NCBI GenBank assembly: GCA_028867675.1
Contig: JAGWGA010000011.1
Coordinates: forward strand, 1-46,692
Source of the DNA: Nitrososphaerota archaeon
GTDB taxonomy: Archaea > Thermoproteota > Nitrososphaeria > Nitrososphaerales > Nitrosopumilaceae
Direction of reading: 5' to 3'
DNA length: 46,692 nucleotides
The notes below the pieces were generated by a model. It did no database searches, was not told the DNA's origin, and saw only the letters and a list, made by a program, of their open reading frames with translations. Positions 6,598-23,796 of this stretch are shown piece by piece; the stretch's first letter is position 1; each line of letters starts with the position of its first letter. Both the position numbers and the translations under genes were made by a program.

Positions 6598-7326
6598 TTA
6601 ATTACCTACTCGTTTGAGGAAAACATCTATTCTTTTTTGTAGATCGTTGTGGATGTCGATTACTGGTCTATTTCCATTAATTGGTATTAGGCCATATCTT
6701 TTCTGCATCGCATAAAACTCTTGTGAGATCTTTTTCTGATAAATCAAAAATGACTCGTACATATCTTCTGATAATCCAATGTCTGCACCTGATTCATAAT
6801 GATCTAATACCATATTTTTTTGAAATACTCTATGAACCAATACCTCTGGATCAACATCTAAATAAAATACAACATCTGGTTTTATTGAAAATCCATACAA
6901 ATTATGACACCAAGTTCTGTCTAACCCTCTTACCAGGTTTCTCGCTATGAGTGTGTAGATGTACCTGTCTGCAAGGACAATATATCCTGCTTGCAAAGCA
7001 GGGATAATCTTGTATTCAAATTGGTCTGCAAAATCAGCTGCATAAAATAAAGCAAGAGTCTTTCTGCCAAGATTGTAGTCTTGTTTTGCTTCTAATATTC
7101 CCTGGCCTACTAATTCTGATCTTTTAATGCCTGTATTGAGTACTGCATGTCCATCTGCTTCTAATCTTGTAGTTATTGCCTGAATCTGAGTACTTCTACC
7201 TGATGCATCTGGGCCCTCGATTACAATCAAGCGACCTTTAATTTCTATATCTTGTAAATTCTTTAAACCATGACCATAAAATTCAACAGTTCTTTTCCCA
7301 AGATCTTTGTATTTTGTTCGTGTCAT
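6598..7326 (-). CDS. thymidylate kinase-like protein with altered P-loop
   Basis: This 242-residue protein has the thymidylate kinase fold signature: a P-loop region near 38-46, a LADRYIYT (DRY) motif near 120, and the KPDVVFYLDVD strand. The Walker A motif reads GPDASGRST, so the normally invariant lysine is R44. There is also a ~30-residue N-terminal extension before the first strand. It lies 1 bp after the upstream paralogue, so the pair is co-transcribed. TMK normally makes dTDP from dTMP. With a second TMK having a canonical P-loop next door, this copy may be a regulatory partner or have another substrate. The neighbouring SixA, Ppx and CHAD genes suggest phosphate or polyphosphate metabolism, but that is inference. 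Confidence 0.75.
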   Translation of the reverse strand: MTRTKYKDLGKRTVEFYGHGLKNLQDIEIKGRLIVIEGPDASGRSTQIQAITTRLEADGHAVLNTGIKRSELVGQGILEAKQDYNLGRKTLALFYAADFADQFEYKIIPALQAGYIVLADRYIYTLIARNLVRGLDRTWCHNLYGFSIKPDVVFYLDVDPEVLVHRVFQKNMVLDHYESGADIGLSEDMYESFLIYQKKISQEFYAMQKRYGLIPINGNRPVIDIHNDLQKRIDVFLKRVGN

Positions 7327-7327
7327 T

Positions 7328-8014
7328 TTATCTTCTGTCCCTTGCTCGACTTGAGCGAGTCTCAGTCAAAAGAGGCATTATTGCTTTTCTTACCAAGTTT
7401 TGTTGTTCTTCGATGTTTAATGTTCCATCAATTATTGTAAATCCTTCTCTTTCTGCAAGTTCATCATATTGCTCAATTATTCTTCCTTGGAAAATTCTAT
7501 AGCTCTCGTATGGATCATTGCTTAGATTCATGTCCATTCCAGCTTCATAATATTTCAGCTTTGGTCTACCAATCAAAATTCTATCAACTGCAATATCTAC
7601 TGGAACTTTAAAGTAAAAGGCAACATCTGGTTTTACTGCAAAATCATAAACTTTCTTTACCCAGTCTGGGTTACAGCCTCTAACAATATCTCTTGCAAAT
7701 GCTGTGTAGATGTATCTGTCAGCTAATACAAAATACCCTGCTCTTAAAAGTGGAGAAATGTTTCTCTCATATCTATCTGCAAAGTCTGTAGCATGTAGCA
7801 AGCTAAAAGTTGTAGGAGTAAGCAAACCTTTTTTCTTTCCTTTTGATGTAATTTGCTTTACCGTCTCAGATGAATTCCATTCTGATTTGAAAACATTAAT
7901 TCCTTTAAAAGCTAGCCACTTTTGTAAAAGATGAAGCTGTGTAGATTTTCCTGAACCATCAATACCTTCGACTATGATTAATTTTCCCGTAGTCCTCATC
8001 TTCTTAAACACCAT
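7328..8014 (-). CDS. tmk: thymidylate kinase (dTMP kinase)
   Basis: This 228-residue protein has a canonical TMK P-loop GIDGSGKST (17-25), the LADRYIYTAFARD motif near 102 and the KPDVAFYFKV strand, so ATP-dependent phosphorylation of dTMP to dTDP is the expected reaction. It is the first gene of a two-gene leftward unit with the paralogue at 6598-7326. The lid region differs from bacterial TMK and carries long inserts (YYEAGMDMNLSNDPYE) that are shared with the paralogue, so the two form their own subfamily. A TATA-like ATCTAAAAAT at about 8039-8048 predicts a leaderless transcript starting near the ATG. Nucleotide specificity is inferred from family resemblance. Confidence 0.8.
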   Translation of the reverse strand: MVFKKMRTTGKLIIVEGIDGSGKSTQLHLLQKWLAFKGINVFKSEWNSSETVKQITSKGKKKGLLTPTTFSLLHATDFADRYERNISPLLRAGYFVLADRYIYTAFARDIVRGCNPDWVKKVYDFAVKPDVAFYFKVPVDIAVDRILIGRPKLKYYEAGMDMNLSNDPYESYRIFQGRIIEQYDELAEREGFTIIDGTLNIEEQQNLVRKAIMPLLTETRSSRARDRR

Positions 8015-8262: not shown

Positions 8263-8754
8263 ATGGATTTGCTAGTTCTAAGGCATGGAGAAGCTGGTCA
8301 GCGCTCTAATTTAGCTGGTGATTTTAAAAGGTCTTTAACAGTTGAAGGAAAACAAGAGATTGTAGAAATAGCAAACGGGTTAAAATCATTAGATGTTGAA
8401 CTTGATCATATCCTTACAAGTCCGCTTCTACGTGCCAAGCAAACTGCCGAGCTCGTAGCAAAATCTCTAAAATACAAAAGTAAAATCGAAGAAATTGATT
8501 CCTTAAAACCTGAAGGTAATAGACTAGAATTTTACTCTACCTTGTCCAAGTTCAAGCAGGATTCAGTAGTACTTGTAGTTGGGCATGAGCCATATCTGAG
8601 TGAGATGATAGGTGAGGCAATATCTCAATCCGGATGCAGAATAGATCTCAAAAAGTCTGGATTAGCTAGAGTTAGAGTCTTAGCAACACTTCCTAAAATC
8701 AGAGGAGAGCTAAGATGGTTGCTTACTCCAAAACAGTTGAAGAAATTAGCGTAG
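8263..8754 (+). CDS. sixA: phosphohistidine phosphatase SixA family
   Basis: The 163-residue product is a compact histidine phosphatase. The catalytic RHG motif is LRHGEAG at residues 7-13, an acid/phosphate-pocket segment LTSPLLRAKQTAELV lies near 52, and the second catalytic histidine is in GHEPYLSEM near 108. SixA removes phosphate from phosphohistidine proteins, such as histidine-phosphotransfer domains. It is followed 96 bp later by Ppx. Two phosphohistidine-forming proteins occur in this window, the sensor kinase (H414) and the PPDK-like protein (H467), and either could be a substrate; this is inference. Confidence 0.87.
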   Translation: MDLLVLRHGEAGQRSNLAGDFKRSLTVEGKQEIVEIANGLKSLDVELDHILTSPLLRAKQTAELVAKSLKYKSKIEEIDSLKPEGNRLEFYSTLSKFKQDSVVLVVGHEPYLSEMIGEAISQSGCRIDLKKSGLARVRVLATLPKIRGELRWLLTPKQLKKLA

Positions 8755-8850: not shown

Positions 8851-10362
8851 CTGAAGATTTCTGTTATTGATCTTGGGTTTAATTCTGCAAAATTGGTTAT
8901 CTATAATGTCAAAGATGATGATTCCTTTGATGTCTATCAACAAGAAGGAATCAAAGTAAGACTTGGAGAAGGACTTGATGAAAAGGGAAAATTGGGTAAA
9001 AAACCCATGATAAGGGCAATTGATACACTTCAAGTTTTTAGAGATATTATCCAATTAAATCCAATAAAATCGGTATTACCTATAGCTACCAGCGCAGTAA
9101 GGGAGGCAAGTAATAGGGAAGAATTTCTAAATATTGTTTCAAAAGAGACTGGATTTGATTTCAAAGTTTTATCTGAACGAGAAGAGGCACTGTATTCCTA
9201 TGTTGGCGCAATAAAATCACTCCACATTCCAGATGCGTTATTTTTTGATATTGGTGGAGGAAGCTTGGAGATTGTTTACGCCGAGAAATTCAAAATAAAA
9301 AAAGTGATTTCATTGCCATTAGGTGCTCTGAGACTAACACACCAGTTTGATGGTAGAAAAGGCAAATTCACTGATAAGAATTTCAAATCTCTGAAACGAC
9401 ATATCTGGGACCTTCTTCCAAACAAAAAAGACTTGGGTCTAAGTAAAGATACAAAGCTAGTTGGTGTGGGTGGCGCATTACGTGCATTAGCAAGATATGA
9501 ACAGCGAATTTCAAAATATCCTTTGGATAAAACTCATAACTATAAAATCAGTCGCAAGTCTCTTGATTTTACTGTAAATGATCTTTCAAGAATCAAACCT
9601 GATGACATGTCAAAGATATCAGTTATAGGTGCTAGTAGAGCTGAGACAATTATTGCAGGTTCCTGTGTGATTGATATGATGATGGAAAAATACGATTTTT
9701 CAGAAATGCATGTTAGTAATCACGGACTCAGAGAAGGTGCACTTTCATTGTTTCTTGAAGATCCAAAGATGTACAATGATGGATATCTAACTGCTGAACA
9801 AATTAGAAAAACAATTGGTCTTGATGAACAACATAAATCGAGTCCTGAAAAAGAGAATTTTATCAATGCATTATTATCCATAAAACTCATTTCTAAACGA
9901 GAACGAAAGATACTTGATCATGCAGAAAAAATCCTGTCCGAGAAATCATCATTTAGTAACCCACAAAGCGTATTTTATTCAATCATGGACGAAGATATGC
10001 CGCTTGAACATAATGATCAACTAGTATTGGGGCTTGCACTAGTACATGCAAGACATACCAAAACCTCCGAATGGCTATTCACTAGATACAAGACAATTCT
10101 GTCTCAACAGGATAAGGTATCTATGAAGAAAATCTCTGCACTAGTAACACTGAGAAGAATCCTTGAGAGAACCAAATCAAGAGTTGAATTAAAATCTCAT
10201 GGTTCAAGAATACTAGAAATCACTGTTATTCAATCAAGGTCTACTCAAAAATTCTTACTCAAAGATGCCTTGAGAAAGTTTGAGATTGCCTTTGATATTG
10301 AAGTGATTCTTTCTACACGTCCTTATGCAGGAAGCTCACAAAACTCAATATTGGAATTCTAA
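8851..10362 (+). CDS. ppx: exopolyphosphatase / Ppx-GppA phosphatase, CTG start
   Basis: This protein belongs to the Ppx/GppA family, which hydrolyses polyphosphate or pppGpp; an archaeal member is most likely an exopolyphosphatase. The first standard start (TTG 8893) would remove the conserved phosphate-binding strand. Translation from CTG at 8851, the codon right after an in-frame TGA, restores KISVIDLGFNSAKLVIY and gives 503 residues. TATTAAAAT at about 8824-8832 sits some 26 bp before that CTG, consistent with a leaderless mRNA. Further motifs are SEREEALYSYVGA near 110, FDIGGGSLEIV near 135 and GVGGALRALA near 208, plus an HD-like helical C-terminal region. Its 3' end overlaps the convergent CHAD gene by 18 bp. 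Confidence 0.9.
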   Translation: MKISVIDLGFNSAKLVIYNVKDDDSFDVYQQEGIKVRLGEGLDEKGKLGKKPMIRAIDTLQVFRDIIQLNPIKSVLPIATSAVREASNREEFLNIVSKETGFDFKVLSEREEALYSYVGAIKSLHIPDALFFDIGGGSLEIVYAEKFKIKKVISLPLGALRLTHQFDGRKGKFTDKNFKSLKRHIWDLLPNKKDLGLSKDTKLVGVGGALRALARYEQRISKYPLDKTHNYKISRKSLDFTVNDLSRIKPDDMSKISVIGASRAETIIAGSCVIDMMMEKYDFSEMHVSNHGLREGALSLFLEDPKMYNDGYLTAEQIRKTIGLDEQHKSSPEKENFINALLSIKLISKRERKILDHAEKILSEKSSFSNPQSVFYSIMDEDMPLEHNDQLVLGLALVHARHTKTSEWLFTRYKTILSQQDKVSMKKISALVTLRRILERTKSRVELKSHGSRILEITVIQSRSTQKFLLKDALRKFEIAFDIEVILSTRPYAGSSQNSILEF

Positions 10363-11160
10363 ATTAAAATTACTTGTCTTTGATTTTCTTTTTTTAAAAG
10401 CAGTCACAAAAGCATTATACTTTTTTCTTCTTTCTAAAATTTCAGATTCTTTGATATCTGAATACTTGGAGCCGTGCTCAGTGTTAAGGTATTCTATGAT
10501 TATATCGCTATCATGAATATCTCCAAGCATGTCTTGAATGTCTTTTAAATTTTTAAGTACTTGGGAAATTTTCTCTTTGTTTGATATCAGTTCAAGTGAA
10601 TATCTTAATTTTTTAAAATCTTTTCTTAACATGTGGAGCTCTTCAACTCTTCTCTCATCTCCAAGTGCAATTATTGTATTTTTTTGTATGTCTAATTCAA
10701 TTCTGTCTAAAACCTTGAGATATCTTTTGTTCAGCTTTGATCTTCCAATGTCTGCCGAAATTTTTGGAATTGATAGATGTAGAATTTTTAAGGCCAATTC
10801 GTTGGCATTTTGAAGGTTTTCTATTCTTAACTTTTTCAGTGATGTTATCATCTCATGAGTTTTTTCCTGATACTTTGACTCCATTTTTGCACATATGATG
10901 TCAATGTCTCTAATCTTTGCATTTAATTTGAAAAGCATCTTGGCTTGTTTTATGTAATTTTTTATTTTCTTTGATTTTCTTTCACTTTTTGGAAGTGTCT
11001 GAAAAGCTGTTTCTAGACGTCTAACTACAACTCTGATATCATGAATATTTTCATCATTTGGGTTTTTTATGTAGTCTTGCAACTTCTGAGAAAACATATC
11101 TGTAATTTTTTTAAATTTCTTAAGAAATAATTTCTTGTCAATTTCTAAAGATTCTTTCAT
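10345..11160 (-). CDS. CHAD domain protein (polyphosphate-binding)
   Basis: This 271-residue all-helical, lysine/arginine-rich protein carries CHAD hallmarks: IHDIRVVVRRLE near 40, LHMLRKDFKKLRYSLEL near 175, and LKDIQDMLGDIHDSDI near 205. CHAD domains have conserved histidines and basic residues and are known to bind inorganic polyphosphate, often beside polyphosphate enzymes. Here it faces ppx tail-to-tail and follows the AbrB-PhoU gene on the same strand after an 86-bp gap. That placement supports a role in polyphosphate granules or in control of polyphosphate turnover. There is no CYTH domain. The start ATG follows a short AT-rich spacer. Confidence 0.85.
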   Translation of the reverse strand: MKESLEIDKKLFLKKFKKITDMFSQKLQDYIKNPNDENIHDIRVVVRRLETAFQTLPKSERKSKKIKNYIKQAKMLFKLNAKIRDIDIICAKMESKYQEKTHEMITSLKKLRIENLQNANELALKILHLSIPKISADIGRSKLNKRYLKVLDRIELDIQKNTIIALGDERRVEELHMLRKDFKKLRYSLELISNKEKISQVLKNLKDIQDMLGDIHDSDIIIEYLNTEHGSKYSDIKESEILERRKKYNAFVTAFKKRKSKTSNFNLEFQY

Positions 11161-11246: not shown

Positions 11247-12299
11247 TTATGGGGAAATGTTTTCCGAAATAACATCCTGGACTGTTTCGTTAATAACTGC
11301 TTCAGCAATATCACTTGAATACTCCGCAGTCCTTCTAATATCTTCCAAGACAAACTTGATTACACTGGAATATTTCTTTGATTCTTCTAGACTATCAGTG
11401 AATTCTCTCTCTTTTTCTGCTATTCTACAAGCATTAGAGGCAACATTATCTGCAAGAGCATAATCTCTCTTATTTAATGCCAGAATGGAATCTTCGAAGA
11501 CTTTAAGTGAATCTTCACTTAGTTTAGTTATTTTTTGTATCAATGCTGGCTCCAAAGTTGATTTTAAGAATTTTATTCTGCCTGCAATAGATACCGCATG
11601 ATCTGCAATCCTTTCAATTGATTTTACAACTATTCTATAACTTATACAATCTGATGGTTTTTTGAGTCCGATATCTCTTAGAATCTTCTCATGTTCTACT
11701 GCAAGTGTCAAATTTCGTAGAATGTATAGGCTGAATCTATCTACTTCATCATCTAGATGTGAAATCTCTTCTCCTAATTCTACATCCATTTCTTTTAGAG
11801 CATCAATTGCCTGTCTATGCATTGCTGATGTGAGTAGGAACATCCTTTTGAGAGCATCACTAATTGAAAGTTCAGGAAGGCTAGTCAAAATCTGAATTGT
11901 AATAGATTCTGGTGTAGTTTCTACTATTTCGGTTCCAATCATATTTTTTCTTACAAGATCTCTTATTGCTTGTTTGTGTTCCAATTGAACTCTGCCTCCT
12001 TTTGCATGAATTTCGATAATTTGATAACCAGCTAAATACATTGCAATTATCTTTCTCTGAACTGATTCTACGGTATCTTTTTGGCTGATTACTGTTTTGG
12101 ATTTTGAGATCTTTGTAGTTTGGGAATTGGTAGAAGGTAATATTGAAAGAGATTTGTTGACATTTTTGATTATTGAAACAGGATCACCGGTCTTTAATTT
12201 CAATTCATCTACCCATTTTTTAGGAAGTGACAAAACATACGTAGATCCGCCTACGAGCTGTAATTTTCGAATCTCTCTATCATTTAATACTTCTGACAA
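11247..12299 (-). CDS. phosphate uptake regulator: AbrB/SpoVT DNA-binding domain plus PhoU
   Basis: The 350-residue protein joins an N-terminal swapped-hairpin AbrB domain (about 6-50, REIRKLQLVGGSTYVLSLPKKW) to a PhoU-type helical domain from about 135 onward (AMHRQAIDALKEMD; SIERIADHAVSIAGRI). This architecture is common in archaea and is thought to couple phosphate-transport state to transcription. It is divergent from pstC, and the AGTTC/GAACT element lies between them. The start is TTG at 12297-12299, supported by a TATA-like CTTTAATT about 26 bp upstream on the minus strand (12321-12328). It is the best candidate for a local regulator of the pst operon; the bound DNA site is not known. 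Confidence 0.9.
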   Translation of the reverse strand: MSEVLNDREIRKLQLVGGSTYVLSLPKKWVDELKLKTGDPVSIIKNVNKSLSILPSTNSQTTKISKSKTVISQKDTVESVQRKIIAMYLAGYQIIEIHAKGGRVQLEHKQAIRDLVRKNMIGTEIVETTPESITIQILTSLPELSISDALKRMFLLTSAMHRQAIDALKEMDVELGEEISHLDDEVDRFSLYILRNLTLAVEHEKILRDIGLKKPSDCISYRIVVKSIERIADHAVSIAGRIKFLKSTLEPALIQKITKLSEDSLKVFEDSILALNKRDYALADNVASNACRIAEKEREFTDSLEESKKYSSVIKFVLEDIRRTAEYSSDIAEAVINETVQDVISENISP

Positions 12300-12393: not shown

Positions 12394-13407
12394 ATGGTCG
12401 ATTCTCTCATATCTGGTATAATTCCTCTGAAAAATGGTATGATGGCTATAAAGATGAAAAAAGGGTCGTCACATATGGATAAAATTTTCAAATATGTCGC
12501 TATAGGCGCAGGCACGTATATTATTGCTCTAGTAGTAATGATTGTAGTTAATCTTAGTACTGGTTCTGCACAAGTATGGCAACAAGAAGGAATTGGATTT
12601 CTTACAGGCTCGGATTGGAATTCTGTAGAGGGCAGAGAAAGCTATGGTGCATTCCCATACATAATGGGTACTCTTGTTAATGCTGGAATTGCTATGATGA
12701 TATCAGTACCACTAAGCTTTGGGATTGCCATGTTCTTATCAGAACTCTCACCGAGATTATTGAGAACTCCTCTAGCTATGGTTATAGAATTACTTGCAGC
12801 TGTTCCAAGTGTTGTGTATGGATTATGGGGATTACTTGTATTTCGAACTTATATTCAGGACTGGATAGAGACTCCACTCCATAATCTCTTTGGAGACCAA
12901 AGTATAATATTTGCTGGAACTCCATTTGGTTTGGATATTCTTACTGCAAGTATAGTTTTAGCTATAATGATAGTTCCAACTATTGCCTCCATTTCTAGAG
13001 AAATAATGTTGGCTGTTCCAAACAGTCAACGTGAAGCAGCATATATGCTTGGAGCAACAAAATGGGAGGCTTTTAGAATTGCAGTCTTACCCTATTCAAA
13101 ATCTGGATTAATAGGGGCAGTAATACTTGGACTGGGAAGAGCTGTAGGAGAAACTATGGCAGTTACAATGTTGATAGGAAACACAACTGGTGCTGCAGCT
13201 ATTCCAACATCTCTATTTCAACCAAGCCAAACATTGGCTAGTATTATGGCAAATGAATTTGCTGAAGCCTCACAAGGTGGTCTGCATCTGGCTGCTCTAG
13301 TTGGTATTGGTTTGATTCTTTTCCTTATTGCATTTCTTATTAATGTAGTTGCACATCTTCTTGTAGCAAGGGTAGTAAAATCGCACGAAGGAGCAGTATT
13401 GGCATGA
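12394..13407 (+). CDS. pstC: phosphate ABC transporter permease PstC
   Basis: This inner permease subunit has about six transmembrane segments and the cytoplasmic coupling loop SREIMLAVPNSQREAAYMLG near 210, the EAA motif that docks on PstB. Together with PstA it forms the phosphate channel. The listed start ATG at 12394 gives 337 residues and is placed about 30 bp after a TATA-like element. An internal ATG at 12475 (MDKIFKYVAIG), directly before the first membrane helix, is an equally good start and would give 310 residues. It is the first gene of a tight operon with pstA, pstB and phoU; its stop overlaps pstA by 4 bp. Confidence 0.94.
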   Translation: MVDSLISGIIPLKNGMMAIKMKKGSSHMDKIFKYVAIGAGTYIIALVVMIVVNLSTGSAQVWQQEGIGFLTGSDWNSVEGRESYGAFPYIMGTLVNAGIAMMISVPLSFGIAMFLSELSPRLLRTPLAMVIELLAAVPSVVYGLWGLLVFRTYIQDWIETPLHNLFGDQSIIFAGTPFGLDILTASIVLAIMIVPTIASISREIMLAVPNSQREAAYMLGATKWEAFRIAVLPYSKSGLIGAVILGLGRAVGETMAVTMLIGNTTGAAAIPTSLFQPSQTLASIMANEFAEASQGGLHLAALVGIGLILFLIAFLINVVAHLLVARVVKSHEGAVLA

Positions 13408-14324
13408 TAACTCCAGAACAGAGAGCAGAATTTAGAAAACATTTTCGATATAATGTCGGTAGAAGGCTTGTATTAGATAAAATTGTCAAGGGAATTGTAT
13501 TTGCATGTGTAATGATTGCGATTATACCGCTAATAGCTATTCTGGTAAATGTCTTTAGTAATGGTGCAGGTGCATTAACTTGGGAATTTCTTACTACAGT
13601 ACCAGGTGCCGTAGGCAGTGATGATCCCGGGGGTATCGGTCCTGCAATTCAAGGAACGATTGTGATTATTGGACTATCAAGCCTTATGGGTGTGCCAATT
13701 GGCGTAATGGGCGGAATATTTCTTTCAGAATATGGCAATAATAGGTATGGAAGAACAATTAGATTCCTTAATGATGTAATGGCAGAATTTCCAACTATTG
13801 TAATTGGTGTATTTGTATTTGTTTTAGTTGTGTTAACTATTGGTGACTTTTCCATGTGGGCCGGTTCCTTTGCACTCTCTATTGTAATGTTGCCAATTGT
13901 GATGAGAACAACCGAGGAATCTCTCAAGCTAGTTCCAGTTACTTATCGAGAAGCAGGTTATGCTTTAGGAATTAGAAGATGGCGCGTAATTATGACAATA
14001 GTGTTAAGCGGTGCAAAAAATGGCCTTATAACAGGAATTTTGTTATCTGTTGCAAGAATTGCTGGTGAAACAGCTCCTCTAGTATTTACAATTCTTGGCA
14101 GCAGTCAATTCATTTCTGGGCTCAGTGGTCCAATCGATGCGCTTCCTCTACGAATATGGAGATTATCATCACTTCCATATGATAGTGCAGTGACTCAAGG
14201 ATGGGGTGGAGCATTTATTTTGATAATTATGGTTCTTTCTATCAATATTGGTGTAAGATATATTTTCTTGAGAAATAAAGAAAAGACATTTATAAAATTC
14301 AGAAAACAAGGAAGGATGTCATGA
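13404..14324 (+). CDS. pstA: phosphate ABC transporter permease PstA
   Basis: This is the second permease subunit, 306 residues, with a basic N-terminus, about six membrane helices and the coupling-loop sequence [22 protein letters not shown] near 170. It pairs with PstC. It starts in an ATGA overlap with pstC and ends in another overlap with pstB, which implies translational coupling. The C-terminus is short and basic ([14 protein letters not shown]). Nothing unusual is seen. Confidence 0.94.
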
Positions 14325-15130
14325 TGGAAACAGCTACTAAAGTACCAATAAAAGTAAATTTTACTGAAGATATAAAATACAAACTTGTAGCTGAAAATAT
14401 TTCTGCAAGTTATGATGGTATAGTTACAGTCAAAAATGTATCAATGAAATTTAGAGACAGAGCTGTTACTGCTCTTATTGGACCGTCAGGATGTGGAAAG
14501 ACAACATTTCTTAGATGTTTGAATAGAATGCATGAACTTACCAAAAATGCTACATTGACAGGAAAAGTTTTACTTGACGGCGAGGATCTTTATTCAAACA
14601 AAGTAGATCCTATAATTAATAGAAGAAAAATTGGAATGGTATTTCAAAAACCAAATCCATTTCCAACTATGTCTATCTATGACAATGTTGCCTGCGGTCT
14701 AAGACTAAACGGTGTTAAAGACAAAAAGATACTAGACGAGGTTGTAGAAGGATGTCTCAAAATGGCATCTCTTTGGAATGAAGTTAAAGGGGATTTGAAG
14801 AAACCTGGAATGAGTCTTTCAGGAGGACAACAGCAGCGTCTGTGTATTGCAAGAGCACTTGCCATACAACCAGAAGTTCTTTTGATGGATGAACCAGCTT
14901 CAGCACTTGATCCTATTGCAACTCAAAAAATAGAAGAGATGATTCAAGAATTAAAAAAAGAATACACGATAATTATTGTAACACATAACATGCAACAGGC
15001 AACTAGAGTATCTGATTATACTGGATTTATGTATCTTGGAGACTTGGTAGAATTTGGAGAAACAAAACAAATCTTTGAAAATCCTAGAAATGAGATAACC
15101 GCAAAGTACGTACAAGGTCAATTCGGATAA
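14321..15130 (+). CDS. pstB: phosphate ABC transporter ATP-binding protein PstB
   Basis: The 269-residue ATPase energises phosphate import. Walker A is GPSGCGKTT near 52, the Q loop is in [13 protein letters not shown] near 108, the signature is LSGGQQQRL near 165, and Walker B is [13 protein letters not shown] near 186, followed by the H loop VTHNMQQ. The KPNPFP motif is typical of PstB rather than other ABC ATPases. It overlaps pstA by 4 bp and is followed after 4 bp by phoU. Two candidate binding proteins (5514-4309 and 22606-23796) are encoded away from the operon. Confidence 0.96.
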
Positions 15131-15134
15131 AAAG

Positions 15135-15761
15135 TTGACTCGTCTAATAGATCCACCTTTAGCAAACCTATCATTGATGATGAAACAAATGTGTGATTTA
15201 TCTGTACAGAGTACTACTCTTGCAATTGATTCGTATCTTGATGGTCAAAATGCTAGAAAAGAGGTACAGCAACTTTCAAACCAAATGATGGAATTGTATG
15301 ACAAAATTGGAGATTTGACATTTGAAATGATCCTTCGCTATCAACCAGTTGCAAGTGATTTCAGACTCATACGTTCTTCACTAGAAATTTCATACGGGTT
15401 TACCAGATTGGGAAGATATTCTTATGATATAGCACAGGTTAGAGATACTTTTGGTGACCTTTCTGAATGTAAAAACATCGTTATCTATTCGTTAGCTGGT
15501 GAAATAAAACACATGATAAACTTGTCTGTAGAATGCTTTGCAACTCTTGATTTACAAAAAGCAAACCAACTACAAACTGATGAAGAATTGGTTGACAAGT
15601 ACTATAACAAACACTTGCCACAACTTATCACATTGAATAGTGTCAAGTGCGCTCTTGCCGATGCGTTAGTTCTGAGATATATGGAACGTATGGCAGATCA
15701 CGCAGCATTTGTTGGAGATTCTGTAAACTATATTGTTAACGGAACAAGAAAATATAGGTAA
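15135..15761 (+). CDS. phoU: phosphate signalling protein PhoU
   Basis: This 208-residue protein has the PhoU three-helix repeat. The second repeat holds the typical ALADALVLRYMERMADHAAFVGDSV segment near 175 with the metal-coordinating E-x3-D-H pattern; the first repeat contains FRLIRSSLEISYGFTRLGRYSYDIA. PhoU links Pst transport state to the regulatory kinase or regulator and limits uptake. The start codon is TTG, 4 bp after the pstB stop, so the gene is the last in the pst operon. Unlike the neighbour at 11247 it has no DNA-binding domain. Confidence 0.92.
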   Translation: MTRLIDPPLANLSLMMKQMCDLSVQSTTLAIDSYLDGQNARKEVQQLSNQMMELYDKIGDLTFEMILRYQPVASDFRLIRSSLEISYGFTRLGRYSYDIAQVRDTFGDLSECKNIVIYSLAGEIKHMINLSVECFATLDLQKANQLQTDEELVDKYYNKHLPQLITLNSVKCALADALVLRYMERMADHAAFVGDSVNYIVNGTRKYR

Positions 15762-15814: not shown

Positions 15815-17179
15815 TTAGGCAGTTAAAATGGATTTTTCATTATCTTTTTTTGATTTGACAGATTTCTTGATATTTTTTTCTAAAATCCATTTGGTTATTT
15901 TTGGCCAAAGCTTTTCATGTGACGATTTACTAATGATCAATCCAACATGTCCTCCTGATATGCGAATCTCTGATATGTCCTTACTTGAAACACAATCTTT
16001 TATTGCCAAGGTGGATTCTGGAGATACTAGATCATCTTTTTCAGAAACGGCTACAAATAGTGGAATGTCAACTTCTTTGAGATTTACTATTTTATCTCCT
16101 ACCTTCAATTTGTTTTCAACCAATAAGTTATTTTTGTATAAATCATTTACAATCTGACGATACATCTTGCCAGGTATTGGAGGAGTATTGTAAAGCCATC
16201 TTTCAACTTCAAAAAAATTCTCCATGAATCTTAGGTCGTTGATACTTTTGAACAGCTTCAAATATTTGTCAACTAAATTTCGATGCGGATTTCTCATCAT
16301 GAATGCATAATCTAACATATTTCCATCTATGTGACCAAACTCATCAATTATTCTGTCTGCATCTACAGCTTTTACCCAAGTTGTAATTAGACTATTGTCT
16401 TTATTAAAATTCACAGGAGCTGCAATAAGAACAAGGCTCTCAACATTTTGTTTGTAAAGTGTTGTATAGATGAGAGAAAGTAAGCCTCCCCAACAATATC
16501 CTATAATTGGTATCTTTTCAAGACCAGTTCTTTCCTTTAGTGCTAATGTTGCTTCATTGAGGAAATTGATATAATCATGTAGGGAATGATGGTCATCCTC
16601 TCTACCTTGATATCCCCAATCAAGAACATAAACATCAAGACCCAACGATGTAAGATTTCTTACTACACTTTTTTCATAATTGATATCCATCAAGTCAAAG
16701 TGATTAATCTGAGCATAAACTAGCATAATTGGAATTGAATTTTTGTTTTCATTCAAGTAATGAAGAAGACGAATTTTTCCTCTTCGATAGACTACTTCTG
16801 AGGGAGTTTCATATTTGTTCTTTTCAAGCATTAATACCGCAGAGTCAAGCACCTTCTTTTTTGCCTCATATGACATGATATCGAAAAACTCAACAGGCAT
16901 ACCTATCTTTCTCATCTGCGCCCTAACGTCTACAAAAGAATCCATGTAAGAAGAGAGTGTTTCTGTAAAGTGAGATTTTCTAAGTTGATGATCAAACTCT
17001 TTGTCCAATTCAGACACAAAATCATTATAAAATTGCTCGTGATTTTCTTTTATTTTGTTAAGTGACTGTCTAAACGCTTCGAGATAAATGGAATAATACA
17101 CCATGTTTAATCTAGTCCAATTTATAGAATGATTTATGGCAATTTTTGGAAAATCAAATATCAAATTTGGTAAACTCAC
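15815..17179 (-). CDS. phaC: poly(3-hydroxyalkanoate) synthase, class III PhaC-like
   Basis: The enzyme polymerises hydroxyacyl-CoA into PHA carbon-storage granules. The alpha/beta-hydrolase core has the lipase-like box GYCWGG with nucleophile C229, the aspartate in SEKDDLVSPEST (about D383) and the histidine in SGGHVGLI (H411). Class III synthases are about 350-360 residues; this ORF is 454, with an added N-terminal ~95-residue helical region before the FFDIMSYE segment. That region might replace part of the PhaE partner, which is not seen nearby. The listed start is GTG; an internal ATG at 17104 would shorten it by 25 residues. Location beside the pst operon suggests carbon storage under phosphate limitation. 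Confidence 0.85.
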   Translation of the reverse strand: MSLPNLIFDFPKIAINHSINWTRLNMVYYSIYLEAFRQSLNKIKENHEQFYNDFVSELDKEFDHQLRKSHFTETLSSYMDSFVDVRAQMRKIGMPVEFFDIMSYEAKKKVLDSAVLMLEKNKYETPSEVVYRRGKIRLLHYLNENKNSIPIMLVYAQINHFDLMDINYEKSVVRNLTSLGLDVYVLDWGYQGREDDHHSLHDYINFLNEATLALKERTGLEKIPIIGYCWGGLLSLIYTTLYKQNVESLVLIAAPVNFNKDNSLITTWVKAVDADRIIDEFGHIDGNMLDYAFMMRNPHRNLVDKYLKLFKSINDLRFMENFFEVERWLYNTPPIPGKMYRQIVNDLYKNNLLVENKLKVGDKIVNLKEVDIPLFVAVSEKDDLVSPESTLAIKDCVSSKDISEIRISGGHVGLIISKSSHEKLWPKITKWILEKNIKKSVKSKKDNEKSILTA

Positions 17180-17272: not shown

Positions 17273-17725
17273 CTATTGAGATGGGTTGCACTTCATTCGA
17301 ATTTCTTTATTTTTGATAAAATACAATAAAGTCGCAAATGCGACTGCGACCAAAGCCGGAATTGCCATTACTCCAAATAAAAATCCGTTAGGAATCACAC
17401 ACATCAATGACGTCAAAATCAATAATGCTGAAGTAATCATCAATGCAAAACCTATTACTGTTGCCAATATTGCGAACCTGTTGTTAAGTAATACTAGAAT
17501 GGATGATATTCCAAAAGGCAAGATTAGTACTCCACCAGCTATGGTTACAGATATCTGAGCCTGCTTAGCATTTAGGTCAAATCCATAAAAACACTCCTTT
17601 CCATCAAAAATAGTCGATATTGAAGATTGTGCGGCAATGGCAAAAAAGATAAACAATGCTCCAATAATTCCTGCATTAACAGAAATCAGATGACTGCTGT
17701 TCACAGGCTCTATAATGCGATGCAT
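17273..17725 (-). CDS. four-helix membrane protein of unknown function
   Basis: The 150-residue product has four hydrophobic segments, at about 13-32, 58-80, 84-106 and 115-138, and a short basic tail. One loop cysteine (KECFYGFD) lies between helices one and two, and another falls within helix three/four (TSLMCVIPNG). I do not recognise a family. It is divergent from the DUF47-like gene and shares a 145-bp promoter region that carries a 7-bp inverted repeat. No role is assigned. Confidence 0.65.
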   Translation of the reverse strand: MHRIIEPVNSSHLISVNAGIIGALFIFFAIAAQSSISTIFDGKECFYGFDLNAKQAQISVTIAGGVLILPFGISSILVLLNNRFAILATVIGFALMITSALLILTSLMCVIPNGFLFGVMAIPALVAVAFATLLYFIKNKEIRMKCNPSQ

Positions 17726-17870: not shown

Positions 17871-19826
17871 ATGATCTCTAAGACATGGATGATCCACCAA
17901 CTTGGAACGGATGAGCTTCTTCTTCCTAGTATGGTAAATGGTGCACTTGTTGCAAATGACATGGCAAAGTATTTCTTTACGCTATTGCAGGTTGCAAAAG
18001 ATCATGCTACAAACCAAGAAATAGACATCTCAGACCTCAAGAATGAGAGGCTTGCTTGTGGAATTGAGGATTCTGTCTTTGATACAGTAGTAAAAACCAG
18101 CAAAAAGGAGAATCAAAATATCAAAATTCCTCATATTAAAAAAATTCTTGACAATATTATTGAATCAATAAAAAAAATGATACTTCCACTTGATATTGCA
18201 AATAGTGCAAGAATTTCTATTACGTATGAATCCACATCTTACAACGAAAGGCTTGAGAAGATTCTACAAAGAATGACTGCTGTAGACGAATACATCTCTA
18301 GCCAATTAATTGATGAAATTACATCCGTTCAACGAAATCAAAATGATAGCCTACACTTGCTTGTAATGGATCTTCACAAAGAACTCAACCATATACAATC
18401 ACAAATTGCACAGGAATCAATTGATGGTGCAAGAGTCTATGGAGTAACCAAAGACGATCACGAATTGATTAAATCATTTATGGCGGGAATAAATCAAACA
18501 ATAAAACTAAAGTTTGAACACCCGGGACTTGGAACTACTGTAACTAGATCTGCAGACACTCTTGTAATACAAAATGATATTGGCACAACTGATGCACATG
18601 TTCTTGTTATACATGTTAAAGGAAATGTTGTAACTTTGACTTATACTGACATTCACATAGATAGATTGCTTTTCTTCCATTCTTTATTTGAAAAGTTCGA
18701 CATAACATGGAATGATACAATGTCAAAGAAATCTACTGGAATTGATGGTTCTGTATATCACCTAAGTATTGGAACATATTCTGCAAAAAATTCTGATGAC
18801 TTAAAAGCATATCTAAAATTTTTGGGCTCTAGGATAGTATTTCTAATTGACTGGAATCGAGCAAGAAAACAACTAAGAAAATTTGTAAAAAAGAAAGACA
18901 CAATAATGATTCTGAAATGGGCGGCTGATAATCATTATGGACACAGAGGTTTTCTTGAGCTTGGAGGTGCACAATTACTCTTTGATACCATTGAGCAGAT
19001 ATCCAAAGGGTCTCTTAGATTTGGAGAATCATTATACCAAGCAATTGGGGAAGAAAATGCAATTGAACTTCTAAAGTTTATACTCAAGACAACAACTGAA
19101 GGGATTTTAGAAGGAAGATCAATGTTACTGCTTCGCGATGAGGTTAGAACCGAACTTATGAATTATTTACGCACTGCGCATCAAGGATTTTTAGATGTTG
19201 TAATAAATCATGCATCTTTTGTTTTAGAAATTATGACCAGCGTACGAGAAGGATTACTAGAATCTCGTGGAATTCGTTCATCTGAAATTATGGAAAAAAA
19301 TGCAAAGCGTGCTCAAAAATGGGAACAGAAAGGAGATGAATTAGTTAAAAAAGCAAGAGAGATGGTAAAAAAAGAAAACTATCCAAAAATTGTAGAAGAA
19401 ATCATTGTACTTTCCGACGATGTTGCAGATTCTTTGGAAGAGACTGCATTTATGCTAACTCTTATACCAAACAAAGAAATGTCTGAGAATCTATACCAAT
19501 CTCTTAATGATCAGGCCGACCTTGCATTACAGTGCTCTAGAGAATATCTCAAGGCCGTAGAAAATGCACGTTATGTTCATAGGGGAATTTCTCGTGAAGA
19601 CATGGAAGACTTTCTTCATGCTATTGATGGGATAATTACTATTGAACATCAAGCCGATGAAGCAAGTCGTAGTTTACGGGTAGTAATAATGCAGGAATCT
19701 ATTGATTTTAAAGAACTCCACCTTTTTTCACAAATATCACAAAACATGGAAGACTCGATAGATAAAATGACAAGACTAGCTTTTAGAATTAGAGAATATG
19801 TTCTTGAAAATTTGATGGTAATGTAA
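17871..19826 (+). CDS. large protein with C-terminal PhoU/DUF47-like domain
   Basis: This 651-residue protein ends (about 425-645) in a long helical region like the PhoU-related DUF47/TIGR00153 family, with EIIVLSDDVADSLEETAFML near 525 and the metal-site-like ITIEHQADEASRSLR near 590. The first ~420 residues are unlike known PhoU proteins. They contain helices (1-170), a strand-rich part (205-300, VLVIHVKGNVVTLTYTDIHI) and a basic segment (DWNRARKQLRKFVKKKDT). No membrane helix or enzyme motif is seen. The PPDK-like gene follows after 23 bp, so the two are almost surely co-expressed. Likely a phosphate-responsive regulator or partner of that enzyme; the specific function is unknown. Confidence 0.75.
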   Translation: MISKTWMIHQLGTDELLLPSMVNGALVANDMAKYFFTLLQVAKDHATNQEIDISDLKNERLACGIEDSVFDTVVKTSKKENQNIKIPHIKKILDNIIESIKKMILPLDIANSARISITYESTSYNERLEKILQRMTAVDEYISSQLIDEITSVQRNQNDSLHLLVMDLHKELNHIQSQIAQESIDGARVYGVTKDDHELIKSFMAGINQTIKLKFEHPGLGTTVTRSADTLVIQNDIGTTDAHVLVIHVKGNVVTLTYTDIHIDRLLFFHSLFEKFDITWNDTMSKKSTGIDGSVYHLSIGTYSAKNSDDLKAYLKFLGSRIVFLIDWNRARKQLRKFVKKKDTIMILKWAADNHYGHRGFLELGGAQLLFDTIEQISKGSLRFGESLYQAIGEENAIELLKFILKTTTEGILEGRSMLLLRDEVRTELMNYLRTAHQGFLDVVINHASFVLEIMTSVREGLLESRGIRSSEIMEKNAKRAQKWEQKGDELVKKAREMVKKENYPKIVEEIIVLSDDVADSLEETAFMLTLIPNKEMSENLYQSLNDQADLALQCSREYLKAVENARYVHRGISREDMEDFLHAIDGIITIEHQADEASRSLRVVIMQESIDFKELHLFSQISQNMEDSIDKMTRLAFRIREYVLENLMVM

Positions 19827-19849
19827 GGTGTAGGGAATATGGAGAAATT

Positions 19850-21484
19850 ATGAAAATTGATAACTTAATGGAATCACAAACTAGTCACAAAACAGAAAAA
19901 ATATTTTTCTTTGGAATGCAAAATGTTCTATCAGAACCTTCGGTCGGAACCGTTGGATCTAAAGCTTATAATCTTATTAGAATGACCGCAATAGGTCTTT
20001 CAGTTCCACCAGGTTTTGTTCTTGCCACTTCTTTTTGTAATGAATATCTCAAAAACAACAATCAACTGTCAAATGATTTTGAAGGATTAATCGAGTCTAA
20101 CATGAGAAGACTTGAAAATATGACTAGGCTTACATTTGGGGGTCTGAGAAGACCACTTTTGATTTCTGTCAGATCAGGTGCTCCTGTGTCTATGCCTGGG
20201 ATGATGGATACAGTCTTGAATGTGGGATTGACAAACACATCACTTCATGGTCTAATTCGCATGACTGGAAATCCACGACTTGCGTGGGACTCGTACCGCC
20301 GATTAATCCAGACATATGCAACTCTTGTTCATGGATGTCCCTCTGATCCATTTGATAAAAAAATAGATGAGTATTGCAAAAAAGAATCATTACAAACTAG
20401 TGACTTTGATTCCGAGACCCTCAAGTCCTTGACTGGAGAATTTTTAGATATTTATCAAAAAAATGTTGGACTCGAATTTCCACAAAAACCTCTGGAGCAA
20501 CTAATGGGTGCAGTAGAAACAGTCTTCAAGTCTTGGAATAGTCCCAGAGCATCTGAATATAGAAAAATTCATCACATTGGAGATGGTCTTGGTACAGGAG
20601 TAATAATACAAACTATGGTGTTTGGTAATATGGGGTCTACCTCTGGTTCTGGTGTTGCTTTTACAAGAAATCCTTCAACTGGTGAAAACTCTCTGTACAT
20701 GGATTTTATGTTCAACGCTCAAGGTGAAGATGTTGTTTCAGGACGGGTTGGAATACAAGATCCTGACAAACTACGTCGAATTCTTCCAGGTGTTTACAAA
20801 GAAATTCAAAATACAAAAAAAATTCTTGAAATGGAATTCAAAGATGTTCAAGATTTTGAATTCACCATCCAAGAAGGAAGACTTTACATTTTACAATGTA
20901 GAAATGGAAAGAGAACAAATCTTGCAGCACTACAGATTGCAGTTGATCTAGTACGAGAGGGAATAATAGATCCTCCAAAGGCTTTGGAGAGAATAAAAAA
21001 TCTTAATCTTAAAGAAATTGAACAAGTAAATCTTGTTTTAAAATCTGGTTTAAAACCCATATCTGTTGGCATACCTGCAAGTTCTGGAGTTGTAGTGGGT
21101 GAAATTGTACTTGATCCTATGATTGCAAAGCAAAAAGAATCTACTGGGAAAAACTTGATTCTTGTAAGAGATGAGATATCCACTAATGATATAAATGGAA
21201 TTAATTCCTGTTCTGGAATATTGACACATGTTGGAGGAAAGACCTCGCATGCCGCAGTTATAGCAAGACAGATGAACAAAGTCTGTATTGTTGGATGTAA
21301 AAATATGTCAATTGATTTGAAGAGTGGAAAAATTTTGATAGGTGATATTGTTCTTAACGAAGGTGATGTGATATCTCTTGACGGAAATAATGGTAAGATT
21401 TATGGTGAAAAATTAGATATATCGGTTAACAGACCAACCCCTCTCTTAGAAGAGATTGAAAAATGGAACAATAGACTACAGTAA
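19850..21484 (+). CDS. pyruvate phosphate dikinase-like protein lacking the PEP/pyruvate domain
   Basis: The 544-residue protein matches the first two parts of PPDK. The ATP-grasp region shows SVRSGAPVSMPGMMDT (106-121), GVAFTRNPSTGE (268-279) and FTIQEGRLYILQCRNGKRT (338-356). The phosphohistidine domain shows GILTHVGGKTSHAAVIAR with catalytic H467. Full PPDK is about 870-900 residues; the C-terminal PEP/pyruvate TIM-barrel is absent, and only 34 bp separate the stop from uspA, so it was not lost to a local frameshift. The enzyme could phosphorylate its own histidine with ATP and Pi but needs another acceptor or partner. It is co-transcribed with the DUF47-like gene. A Pi-sensing or phosphotransfer role is inferred. 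Confidence 0.88.
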   Translation: MKIDNLMESQTSHKTEKIFFFGMQNVLSEPSVGTVGSKAYNLIRMTAIGLSVPPGFVLATSFCNEYLKNNNQLSNDFEGLIESNMRRLENMTRLTFGGLRRPLLISVRSGAPVSMPGMMDTVLNVGLTNTSLHGLIRMTGNPRLAWDSYRRLIQTYATLVHGCPSDPFDKKIDEYCKKESLQTSDFDSETLKSLTGEFLDIYQKNVGLEFPQKPLEQLMGAVETVFKSWNSPRASEYRKIHHIGDGLGTGVIIQTMVFGNMGSTSGSGVAFTRNPSTGENSLYMDFMFNAQGEDVVSGRVGIQDPDKLRRILPGVYKEIQNTKKILEMEFKDVQDFEFTIQEGRLYILQCRNGKRTNLAALQIAVDLVREGIIDPPKALERIKNLNLKEIEQVNLVLKSGLKPISVGIPASSGVVVGEIVLDPMIAKQKESTGKNLILVRDEISTNDINGINSCSGILTHVGGKTSHAAVIARQMNKVCIVGCKNMSIDLKSGKILIGDIVLNEGDVISLDGNNGKIYGEKLDISVNRPTPLLEEIEKWNNRLQ

Positions 21485-21518: not shown

Positions 21519-21956
21519 ATGATTAATAAAATGGTCAAGAACATTCTTGTTGCTTATGATGGTTCAGGACCTTCATATCGAGCACTTGATTTTGCTTTAG
21601 ATTTGGCAAAAAAATATGATGGCAACATAACTGTAGTAACATGTGTGACTCTATATCCAGATGTTGATCCTCATTCTTCAGACTATGCTTCAATGCTTAG
21701 TGTATTAAAACAAGGTAGCCTGAAAACAGTATCTGAATTAGAGCCAAAATTAAAAGAATCCAAAATTGCATACAAAACCGAAGTCATAGAGGCAATTTCA
21801 GTTGCTGATGCAATACTGAATTATTCTGAAAAATTCTCAATTGATCTTATAGTTATGGGTTCACGAGGAATAGGTGGATTCAAAACTTTGCTACTTGGAA
21901 GTGTTACAAATGGTGTTTCTCAGCATTCCAAATGTCCGGTACTGATTGTCAAGTAG
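21519..21956 (+). CDS. universal stress protein UspA family
   Basis: A single Usp domain of 145 residues. The N-terminal strand NILVAYDGSGPSYRALDFAL and the C-terminal nucleotide-binding motif GSRGIGGFKTLLLGSVTN, ending in CPVLIVK, are typical of ATP-binding Usp proteins. The listed ATG at 21519 is followed by another at 21531 (MVKNILVAYDG). The second fits better with the family N-terminus and with a TATA-like TTTTAATATT about 26 bp upstream, giving 141 residues. It is downstream of the PPDK-like gene but probably has its own promoter. Such proteins bind ATP or act as stress-linked regulators; no target is evident. Confidence 0.9.
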   Translation: MINKMVKNILVAYDGSGPSYRALDFALDLAKKYDGNITVVTCVTLYPDVDPHSSDYASMLSVLKQGSLKTVSELEPKLKESKIAYKTEVIEAISVADAILNYSEKFSIDLIVMGSRGIGGFKTLLLGSVTNGVSQHSKCPVLIVK

Positions 21957-22605: not shown

Positions 22606-23796
22606 ATGACAAAGAAAGTCTTCTTAGGATTAGCATTAATGCTGATCCTATTAGTACCGACAACTGTTCTTAGTGCACACGCAGCTTCTGCACCTCCAGC
22701 ACCTGGTGACAGTGATAAATACAATTACAATGCAGGAGGTTCAACTTTTGCATATCCGATTGTTGACAAATGGAGAGTTCAATATCATGCTCTCTATCCT
22801 GGAATCACATTGAATTATCAGGCTATAGGTAGTGGAGCTGGCATTAAGCTGTTTACATCAAAGAAAGTGGACTTTGCAGGAACTGATGCACCATTACAAA
22901 AGTCAGAAATTGCAAAAGCTCCGAAAGGAACCTTGACTATTCCTGAGTCAATGGGTGCGATTGTTGTTACTTACAACGTTCCAGGAATCTACAAAAATGG
23001 ATTAAAGCTAACTGGCGATGTAATAGCAAAAATCTTCATGGGTCAAATCACTAAATGGAATGATCCATCTCTCATAAAACTACAAACCGATTCAAGCATT
23101 ATAAAAGCACTACAGAATGATAGGAACAAAATTAATGTAGTACACAGATCCGATGGCTCTGGTACAACATTTGCATTTAGTAGCTATCTTTCTCAAGTAA
23201 GCTCTGCTTGGAACGGTAAAATAGGACATGCAACATCTGTTCCATGGCCAACTGGAATGGGAGGCTCAGGTAACGCAGGAGTAGCAGCAATTGTAAAGAA
23301 GGTGCCTGAATCAATAGGCTATGTTGAATTGGCATATGCAAAACAAAATACCATGAACACACTTACTGGTAACGCAGGTGTGGGTCTAGGTGCAATACCT
23401 ATGACATATGCTTATGTGCAAAACCATGACAAGACTGCATTTCTTGATGCTACTGTAGCTACTACAGCAGCAGCCGCATCCGGGGCAGTATCTTCACTGC
23501 CTGCAGCAGACGGGGTTTGGAGTAATGTATCAATTAATGATGCACCAGGACCAAACGCATATCCAATTGCTACATTTACCTATCTATTGGTAAATCCTAA
23601 TCTTGAGCAATTGAGTGGTATGAGTCAACAAAAGGCACAAGATCTAGTCCACATGCTCTACTGGTTTGTAACAGACGGCCAACAATACGCTACGAAACTA
23701 TTGTATGTACCACTTCCAAGTACAATACAAGAGTTAGACGAGAAGGGTATTTCAGAAATAAAATTCAATGGCCAACAGCTCTGGTCTTATCCATAG
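22606..23796 (+). CDS. pstS: phosphate ABC transporter substrate-binding protein PstS, soluble
   Basis: The 396-residue protein has a signal peptide (about 1-27, cleavage likely near AHAASA) followed by the phosphate-pocket motifs GGSTFAYPIVDKW near 45, AIGSGAGIKLF near 71, GTDAPLQKSE near 90 and HRSDGSGTTFAFSSYL near 183. It lacks the C-terminal membrane helix of the other PstS and has no lipobox, so it should be free or associated with the S-layer space. It carries an alanine-rich insert near 285-300. A T-rich terminator follows. Two PstS forms with one pstCAB operon suggest different affinities or conditions. Confidence 0.94.
   Translation: MTKKVFLGLALMLILLVPTTVLSAHAASAPPAPGDSDKYNYNAGGSTFAYPIVDKWRVQYHALYPGITLNYQAIGSGAGIKLFTSKKVDFAGTDAPLQKSEIAKAPKGTLTIPESMGAIVVTYNVPGIYKNGLKLTGDVIAKIFMGQITKWNDPSLIKLQTDSSIIKALQNDRNKINVVHRSDGSGTTFAFSSYLSQVSSAWNGKIGHATSVPWPTGMGGSGNAGVAAIVKKVPESIGYVELAYAKQNTMNTLTGNAGVGLGAIPMTYAYVQNHDKTAFLDATVATTAAAASGAVSSLPAADGVWSNVSINDAPGPNAYPIATFTYLLVNPNLEQLSGMSQQKAQDLVHMLYWFVTDGQQYATKLLYVPLPSTIQELDEKGISEIKFNGQQLWSYP

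Follow-up and report, generated by a model that had tools for sequence, protein, structure and literature searches.

Pyruvate phosphate dikinase (PPDK) relies on a swivel histidine that shuttles phosphate between its ATP-grasp site and its pyruvate site. Two kinds of systems derived from this chemistry have already been described. VadK (Rv1127c) is a truncated PPDK that autophosphorylates on His422 in an ATP- and Mg-dependent manner. It is encoded with an operonic partner, in a genome devoid of any PEP (phosphoenolpyruvate)-domain gene, and interacts with metabolic enzymes (PMC13400623). HpeHI, CreHI and PpsAB are two-component dikinases acting on small-molecule substrates (phenols for HpeHI and PpsAB), and the acceptor site of HpeHI is located on the second protein (PMC12167813). 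Here, we analyzed two adjacent genes, ORF1 and PPDKt, carried by a 46,692-nucleotide stretch of DNA (hereafter the window) from a Nitrososphaerota archaeon (contig JAGWGA010000011.1). PPDKt encodes a PPDK lacking its third domain and ORF1 encodes a large protein combining a new N-terminal domain with a PhoU-like C-terminal domain. We give about an even chance to the explanation that the two proteins are the subunits of a PPDK-derived two-component dikinase involved in phosphate or polyphosphate (polyP) metabolism.

Truncation and catalytic residues of PPDKt

ORF1 (17871..19826, + strand, 651 aa) is followed after 23 bp, on the same strand, by PPDKt (19850..21484, + strand, 544 aa), as given in the original prediction made from the letters of the window. 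This prediction also described the second protein as a PPDK-like protein without PEP domain that keeps the ATP-grasp domain and H467, which is borne out by TIGR01828, Pfam and the alignment with the Clostridium symbiosum PPDK. The TIGR01828 (PPDK) profile aligns with PPDKt over positions 15-525 of 865, with a score of 576 bits for a cut-off of 843. Pfam detected PPDK_N (PF01326, 2.3e-42) and PEP-utilizers (PF00391, 5.2e-20) in PPDKt and no match to PEP-utilizers_C. The C. symbiosum enzyme aligns with PPDKt over residues 18-527 only, its phosphohistidine facing H467. PPDKt therefore shares the ATP-grasp and phosphohistidine swivel domains of PPDK over about 510 residues, with the catalytic residues kept, and stops within the linker that leads to the PEP/pyruvate domain in PPDK. 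It differs from PPDK by the absence of this domain, a score under the family cut-off, its position in a separate clade and the obligate-looking partner ORF1.

The homologs of PPDKt are 41-54% identical to the window protein. The counterparts of PPDK residues R92, R135, G254, E323, Q335, R337, T453 and H455, which we take to belong to the catalytic site from the C. symbiosum alignment, are identical in 63/63 PPDKt. In the numbering of the window protein, R108, R151, G268, E337, Q349, R351 and H467 are invariant across these 63 homologs; the H467 codon (21248..21250, + strand) corresponds to the catalytic H455 and specifies His in all of them. The counterpart of K22 is kept in 62 of the 63 proteins and that of D321 is always D or E. 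Although the C-terminal third of PPDK is absent, as expected from a decaying and functionless fragment, the catalytic residues are conserved in every homolog of a group found in two domains of life and cut at one defined position. Because of this conservation, the decay of PPDKt is in effect refuted and we regard it as extremely improbable. A Trp at the PPDK linker position is nearly invariant (W539, 60/63), which suggests that PPDKt may have descended from a full-length PPDK by loss of the third domain.

An ordinary PPDK whose PEP/pyruvate domain is encoded by a separate gene would also have intact catalytic residues, and split enzymes of this type exist. However, the search of 34 carrier genomes did not reveal any recurring stand-alone PEP-utilizers_C partner that could restore an ordinary PPDK: the matches were either frames of the size of a full PpsA, PPDK or PtsI, or short frames resembling fragments at contig ends. 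The window's own genome is 97.5% complete; its single match is a 743-aa PEP-synthase-like protein, and family searches found no full PPDK in it. Furthermore, the carriers among ammonia-oxidizing archaea (AOA) encode a full PPDK or a PEP synthase elsewhere, and PPDKt forms a separate clade tied to ORF1. We thus rejected a separate PEP-domain subunit and consider an ordinary split PPDK as very unlikely.

PPDKt resembles VadK and the NF004531/PRK05878 group by its content in ATP-binding and His domains only and by its operonic partner. However, their links differ, being to the methylcitrate cycle for VadK and to phosphate and polyP genes for PPDKt. PPDKt scores 438.9 against NF004531, under the cut-off of 456. 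In a tree whose VadK-type side comprises three actinobacterial sequences but not Rv1127c itself, 72 PPDKt form a single clade (SH-aLRT 100) that excludes the full-length PPDKs of archaea and bacteria as well as the VadK-type proteins, the latter grouping with full-length PPDK. Lastly, no ORF1 homolog was found at the VadK-type loci examined. Taken together, the score, the tree and the lack of ORF1 at these loci led us to reject PPDKt as a member of the VadK group.

ORF1 and its pairing with PPDKt

Taken alone, the ORF1 sequence of the window has no significant match among Pfam, NCBIfam or PDB sequences. However, 48 of 70 aligned ORF1 homologs match DUF47 (PF01865, PhoU_div; best E 2.4e-12), the ORF1 family profile matches the PhoU-like structure 3l39 (E 2.9e-5), and the AlphaFold model of ORF1 (pLDDT 89) matches the fold of 3l39 with a TMt of 0.84. 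The three PhoU-type E/DxxxD motifs (E485/D489, D516/D520 and E592/D596; 19323..19661, + strand) are kept in 69-70 of the 70 homologs; such motifs are known to bind metal in PhoU. Profile, fold and motifs agree, and the C-terminal ~230 aa of ORF1 (~aa 420-650) are a DUF47/PhoU-like helical domain. The PhoU-related C-terminus announced by the original prediction is thus real, but it becomes visible through homologs, profile and model and not from the window sequence alone. The helical-bundle fold and the motifs shared with PhoU/DUF47 proteins concern this part only: those proteins are stand-alone (~210 aa), whereas in ORF1 the PhoU-like part comes after a fused 417-aa domain that has no known relatives.

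This N-terminal domain (~aa 1-417), folded alone, gives a confident model (pLDDT 91.7, pTM 0.87). It matches no Pfam family, and the search of the PDB with the isolated fold was empty at E≤0.001, in agreement with the novel N-terminus of about 420 residues already proposed. Influenza PA, considered as a fold relative (E near 0.02), was rejected as noise (TM ~0.13). The conserved core of the domain (aa 153-375; 18327..18995, + strand) contains 17 residues that are invariant in 70/70 homologs (D159, H162, D167, H169, H217, N235, D236, H243, D260, H262, R265, D327, W328, N329, R332, K333 and H358), including six histidines (H162, H169, H217, H243, H262 and H358). Judging from this conservation, the core is likely an active site or a phospho-acceptor region. 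Stand-alone paralogs of the N-terminal domain (~335 aa) were also observed in five methanogen-class genomes; the four that we read (L127, 3665-4666; L128, 3236-4237; L129, 2768-3757; L130, 2805-3821) have diverged motifs and no PhoU-like domain, and provided no clue to function.

Five homologs were used for a genome-wide scan, which yielded 202 ORF1 relatives; 80 of them, mostly full-length and 37-51% identical, were kept. It should be emphasized that the whole-genome statements made here are based on family searches and that most sequences come from metagenome-assembled genomes (MAGs). ORF1 is carried by archaea (Nitrososphaeria, Methanomicrobia and Methanosarcina) and by bacteria, namely Beta-, Alpha- and Gammaproteobacteria (including Accumulibacter, Plasticicumulans and Parvibaculum), Acidobacteria and Planctomycetes, as well as one MAG of Myxococcota and one of Thermoleophilia (Actinobacteria). 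At 77 of 81 distinct loci, ORF1 is immediately followed by PPDKt on the same strand. Measurements on 69 pairs gave a median gap of 2 bp, with 64 gaps not exceeding 30 bp and 23 overlapping pairs. Among the four unpaired ORF1, three run off contig ends (with a partner on another contig, a probable 543-aa partner on another contig, and no truncated copy in the assembly, respectively) and the fourth is a true orphan. In the window's class, five of 300 genomes carry a strong ORF1, each with an adjoining PPDKt; the PPDKt of the four other carriers are 52-55% identical to the window protein, and the remaining PPDK matches listed for this class are mainly full-length and do not exceed 45% identity. 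Furthermore, the distance matrices of the two partners correlate with r = 0.87, for a maximum of 0.11 in 5000 permutations. The pairing of ORF1 and PPDKt is not due to chance. The original prediction had proposed to look for the conservation of the gene pair across archaea; the genes are kept together there and in bacteria too. Since the loci were gathered via ORF1, this result means only that ORF1 implies PPDKt, and truncated PPDKs without ORF1, of the VadK type, do occur in Actinobacteria.

At two loci (L093, from Parvibaculum sedimenti, and L102), ORF1 and PPDKt are apparently in one frame with a stop codon between them, which is almost a natural fusion. At another one (L041, 417-1227), fragments of an IS5-like transposase are found near a PhaC/ORF1/PPDKt cluster, in line with the patchy occurrence of the pair (5/300 genomes of the class).

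Phosphate and polyphosphate genes around the pair

By its predicted gene content, the window is a phosphate/polyphosphate island. Upstream of the pair, it carries a PstS-like gene (4309-5514), a gene for a SixA-like phosphatase (His_Phos_1; 8263-8754, + strand), which agrees with the SixA noticed initially, and genes for proteins of the Ppx/GppA exopolyphosphatase type (8893-10362, + strand) and of the CHAD type (10345-11160, - strand), CHAD being a polyP-binding domain (PMC6537752). They are followed by a gene encoding PhoU domains fused to a DNA-binding domain of the AbrB/MazE type (11247-12299, - strand), likely an archaeal phosphate regulator, and divergent to it by a pstC, pstA, pstB and phoU operon (12394..15761, + strand), in which pstA and pstB were assigned by sequence and position and a separate PhoU is encoded at 15135-15761. 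Genes for a PhaC-like polyhydroxyalkanoate (PHA) synthase (15815-17179, - strand) and a small hydrophobic protein (17273-17725, - strand) lie beside the pair, a UspA-like gene (21519-21956) just after it and a second PstS-like gene (22606-23796) further on.

The same neighborhood (PPK1, Ppx, CHAD, SixA and pst genes) was found in the window and in several methanogens. In Methanolinea (L070), PPK1, CHAD, Ppx, ORF1 and PPDKt follow each other on one strand, with a convergent SixA gene after them; in Methanolobus (L064), Ppx, PPK1 and CHAD are divergent to the pair; in the Thermoleophilia MAG (L081), Ppx directly follows PPDKt and precedes CHAD. Overall, in 1.05 Mb of sequence, PPK1 is encoded near the pair at seven loci, CHAD at ten, Ppx at nine and SixA at three, and pst genes lie beside it in the window and at three other loci (L068, L105 and L115). 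Neighbors otherwise vary widely, and phosphate and polyP genes are their main recurring functional theme. At the genome level, 28 of 29 non-AOA carriers have PPK1 and, of 18 carriers tested for PPK2, 17 have it, the window's genome among them. Among 149 methanogen-class genomes, PPK1 was found in 29/29 genomes with ORF1 versus 66/120 without it (Fisher p = 3e-7, uncorrected for phylogeny). Since nearly all carriers possess PPK1 and/or PPK2, the hypothesis that PPDKt is the sole polyP enzyme of its hosts was rejected.

PhaC also lies beside the pair at two related Nitrososphaeria loci, one of which has the small hydrophobic protein, suggesting a storage-polymer island in this lineage. With PhaC beside the pair at these three Nitrososphaeria loci only, PHA metabolism was rejected as a general role.

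Several other neighbors were observed. Two adjacent thymidylate-kinase-like P-loop genes (~230 aa each; 6598-8014, - strand) adjoin SixA and Ppx in the window and may not encode ordinary Tmk; a close copy of one of them (85% identity) is found near the pair at L042, where a 161-aa ORF of phasin/PhaE-like appearance (1249-1734) comes after PPDKt. A B12-dependent ribonucleotide reductase is encoded upstream of the pair at seven loci, mainly betaproteobacterial (among them L058, L059, L060, L063 and L066), and a DUF498 gene (~100-120 aa) lies beside it at six methanogen loci (L064, 11887-12249; L067, 7578-7925; L077; L082, from Methanolobus psychrotolerans; L087 and L118).

Possible functions of the pair

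Since the second site of PPDK is absent from PPDKt while all else is conserved, the phosphate of H467 would need another donor or acceptor. ORF1 is the best candidate to supply it, because it is a near-obligatory neighbor with a conserved polar core. As phosphate and polyP genes are the main recurring theme of the neighborhoods, inorganic phosphate (Pi), pyrophosphate (PPi) or polyP are the likeliest substrates. In the two-component dikinase that we propose, PPDKt would bind ATP in its ATP-grasp domain and transfer phosphate to H467 with release of AMP, and the phosphoryl group would then be exchanged, in either direction, with the second site. The N-terminal domain of ORF1, with its invariant His, Asp, Arg and Lys, could be the acceptor or catalytic side, and the PhoU-like domain could bind metal or phosphate and tune or anchor the enzyme. 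We infer the binding of the two partners, the phosphorylation of H467 and the identity of the acceptor. The reaction could be, for example, ATP + Pi + polyP(n) → AMP + PPi + polyP(n+1), or its reverse, yielding ATP from AMP. A more precise version, in which the pair is an AMP-forming polyphosphate/phosphate dikinase whose phosphorylated or pyrophosphorylated H467 exchanges with polyP on the ORF1 domain, the PhoU-like domain being a built-in phosphate sensor, is tentative and we give it one chance in a few.

The described systems make each half of this proposal plausible, namely VadK (PMC13400623) for the truncated dikinase and HpeHI (PMC12167813) for the second component. As in the phenylphosphate synthase type (HpeHI, CreHI and PpsAB), ATP-grasp/phosphohistidine chemistry would be split over two components, the second giving the acceptor site. 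However, the swivel domain of these enzymes is on the acceptor subunit and the relative is rifampin phosphotransferase (RPH), whereas PPDKt carries ATP-grasp and swivel domains together and its partner consists of an unrelated new domain and a PhoU-like domain; no RPH-like or other PDB fold was matched by the ORF1 N-terminal domain. A dikinase whose substrate is a small organic compound with no relation to polyP, and whose location in phosphate clusters is secondary, could also be considered: small molecules are what the known two-component dikinases use (PMC12167813), polyP neighbors are absent from many bacterial loci, and PhaC adjoins the pair in the window as well as in two relatives. Nevertheless, no catabolic cluster recurs beside the pair, its neighbors vary widely except for phosphate and polyP genes, and its presence tracks PPK1; this explanation appears rather unlikely.

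The original prediction suggested a Pi-dependent phosphohistidine relay with a PhoU-like partner, for which SixA could be the phosphatase. In a regulatory scheme close to it, a VadK-like PPDKt would charge a histidine of ORF1 or use ORF1 as a sensor, ORF1 would control Pst or polyP enzymes through its PhoU-like domain and the SixA-like phosphatase would reset the system. VadK does autophosphorylate on the equivalent His, interact with metabolic enzymes and have an operonic partner (PMC13400623), the PhoU-like domain of ORF1 bears the E/DxxxD motifs, six histidines of ORF1 are invariant, and SixA-like genes directly adjoin the pair at L070, L077 and L084 and belong to the same cluster in the window. 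However, the invariant residues of ORF1 are a broad polar set, more enzyme-like than a single phospho-acceptor site, VadK-type loci lack ORF1 homologs and VadK-type proteins fall on the full-length PPDK side of the tree, SixA lies beside only 3/81 loci, and no transcription factor recurs as a partner. Such a relay is possible but less probable than the two-component dikinase. Of the original prediction, the conserved pair and the intact machinery hold, and the context is one of phosphate and polyP genes, but Pi sensing, relay to the PhoU-like domain and action of SixA are unsupported as stated, and the polyP link, absent from that prediction, is the stronger clue.

Several observations weigh against the proposal of a dikinase of phosphate or polyP metabolism. 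One genome (G590, L112) has an ORF1 without PPDKt. None of the five AOA carriers has PPK1 (four have PPK2 and one has neither), and the PPK1 counts are uncorrected for phylogeny. PolyP enzymes are most strongly associated with the pair in a single archaeal group, and most bacterial loci have other neighbors. Finally, the N-terminal domain of ORF1 is unlike any known polyP-binding or phosphotransferase fold.

To call the pair a new kind of system, as was done initially, is too strong, since a truncated autophosphorylating PPDK (VadK) and two-component dikinases (HpeHI, CreHI and PpsAB) have been published (PMC13400623, PMC12167813). PPDK-derived phosphotransfer chemistry being already known, the novelty lies in the undescribed partner domain. 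The pair appears to be unnamed: searches of open-licence papers for PPDK with PhoU, DUF47, CHAD or Accumulibacter yielded no description of it. It has probably been overlooked owing to its resemblance to PPDK on one side and to DUF47 or a hypothetical protein on the other.

Accumulibacter is a polyP-accumulating genus of wastewater. Overall, this work reveals two strictly paired genes, with intact dikinase residues, that are common to polyP-storing archaea and bacteria, and the N-terminal domain of ORF1 defines a large protein domain family for which no structural relative was found in the PDB. If the pair acts on phosphate or polyP, it would be a new player in polyP metabolism, including that of Accumulibacter, and PPDK annotations used in carbon-flux models would have to be corrected. 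If it is an AMP-forming dikinase, cells could make polyP from ATP or regain ATP from AMP, PPi and polyP, by a route unrelated to PPK1 and PPK2 in polyP-accumulating bacteria, methanogens and some ammonia-oxidizing archaea.

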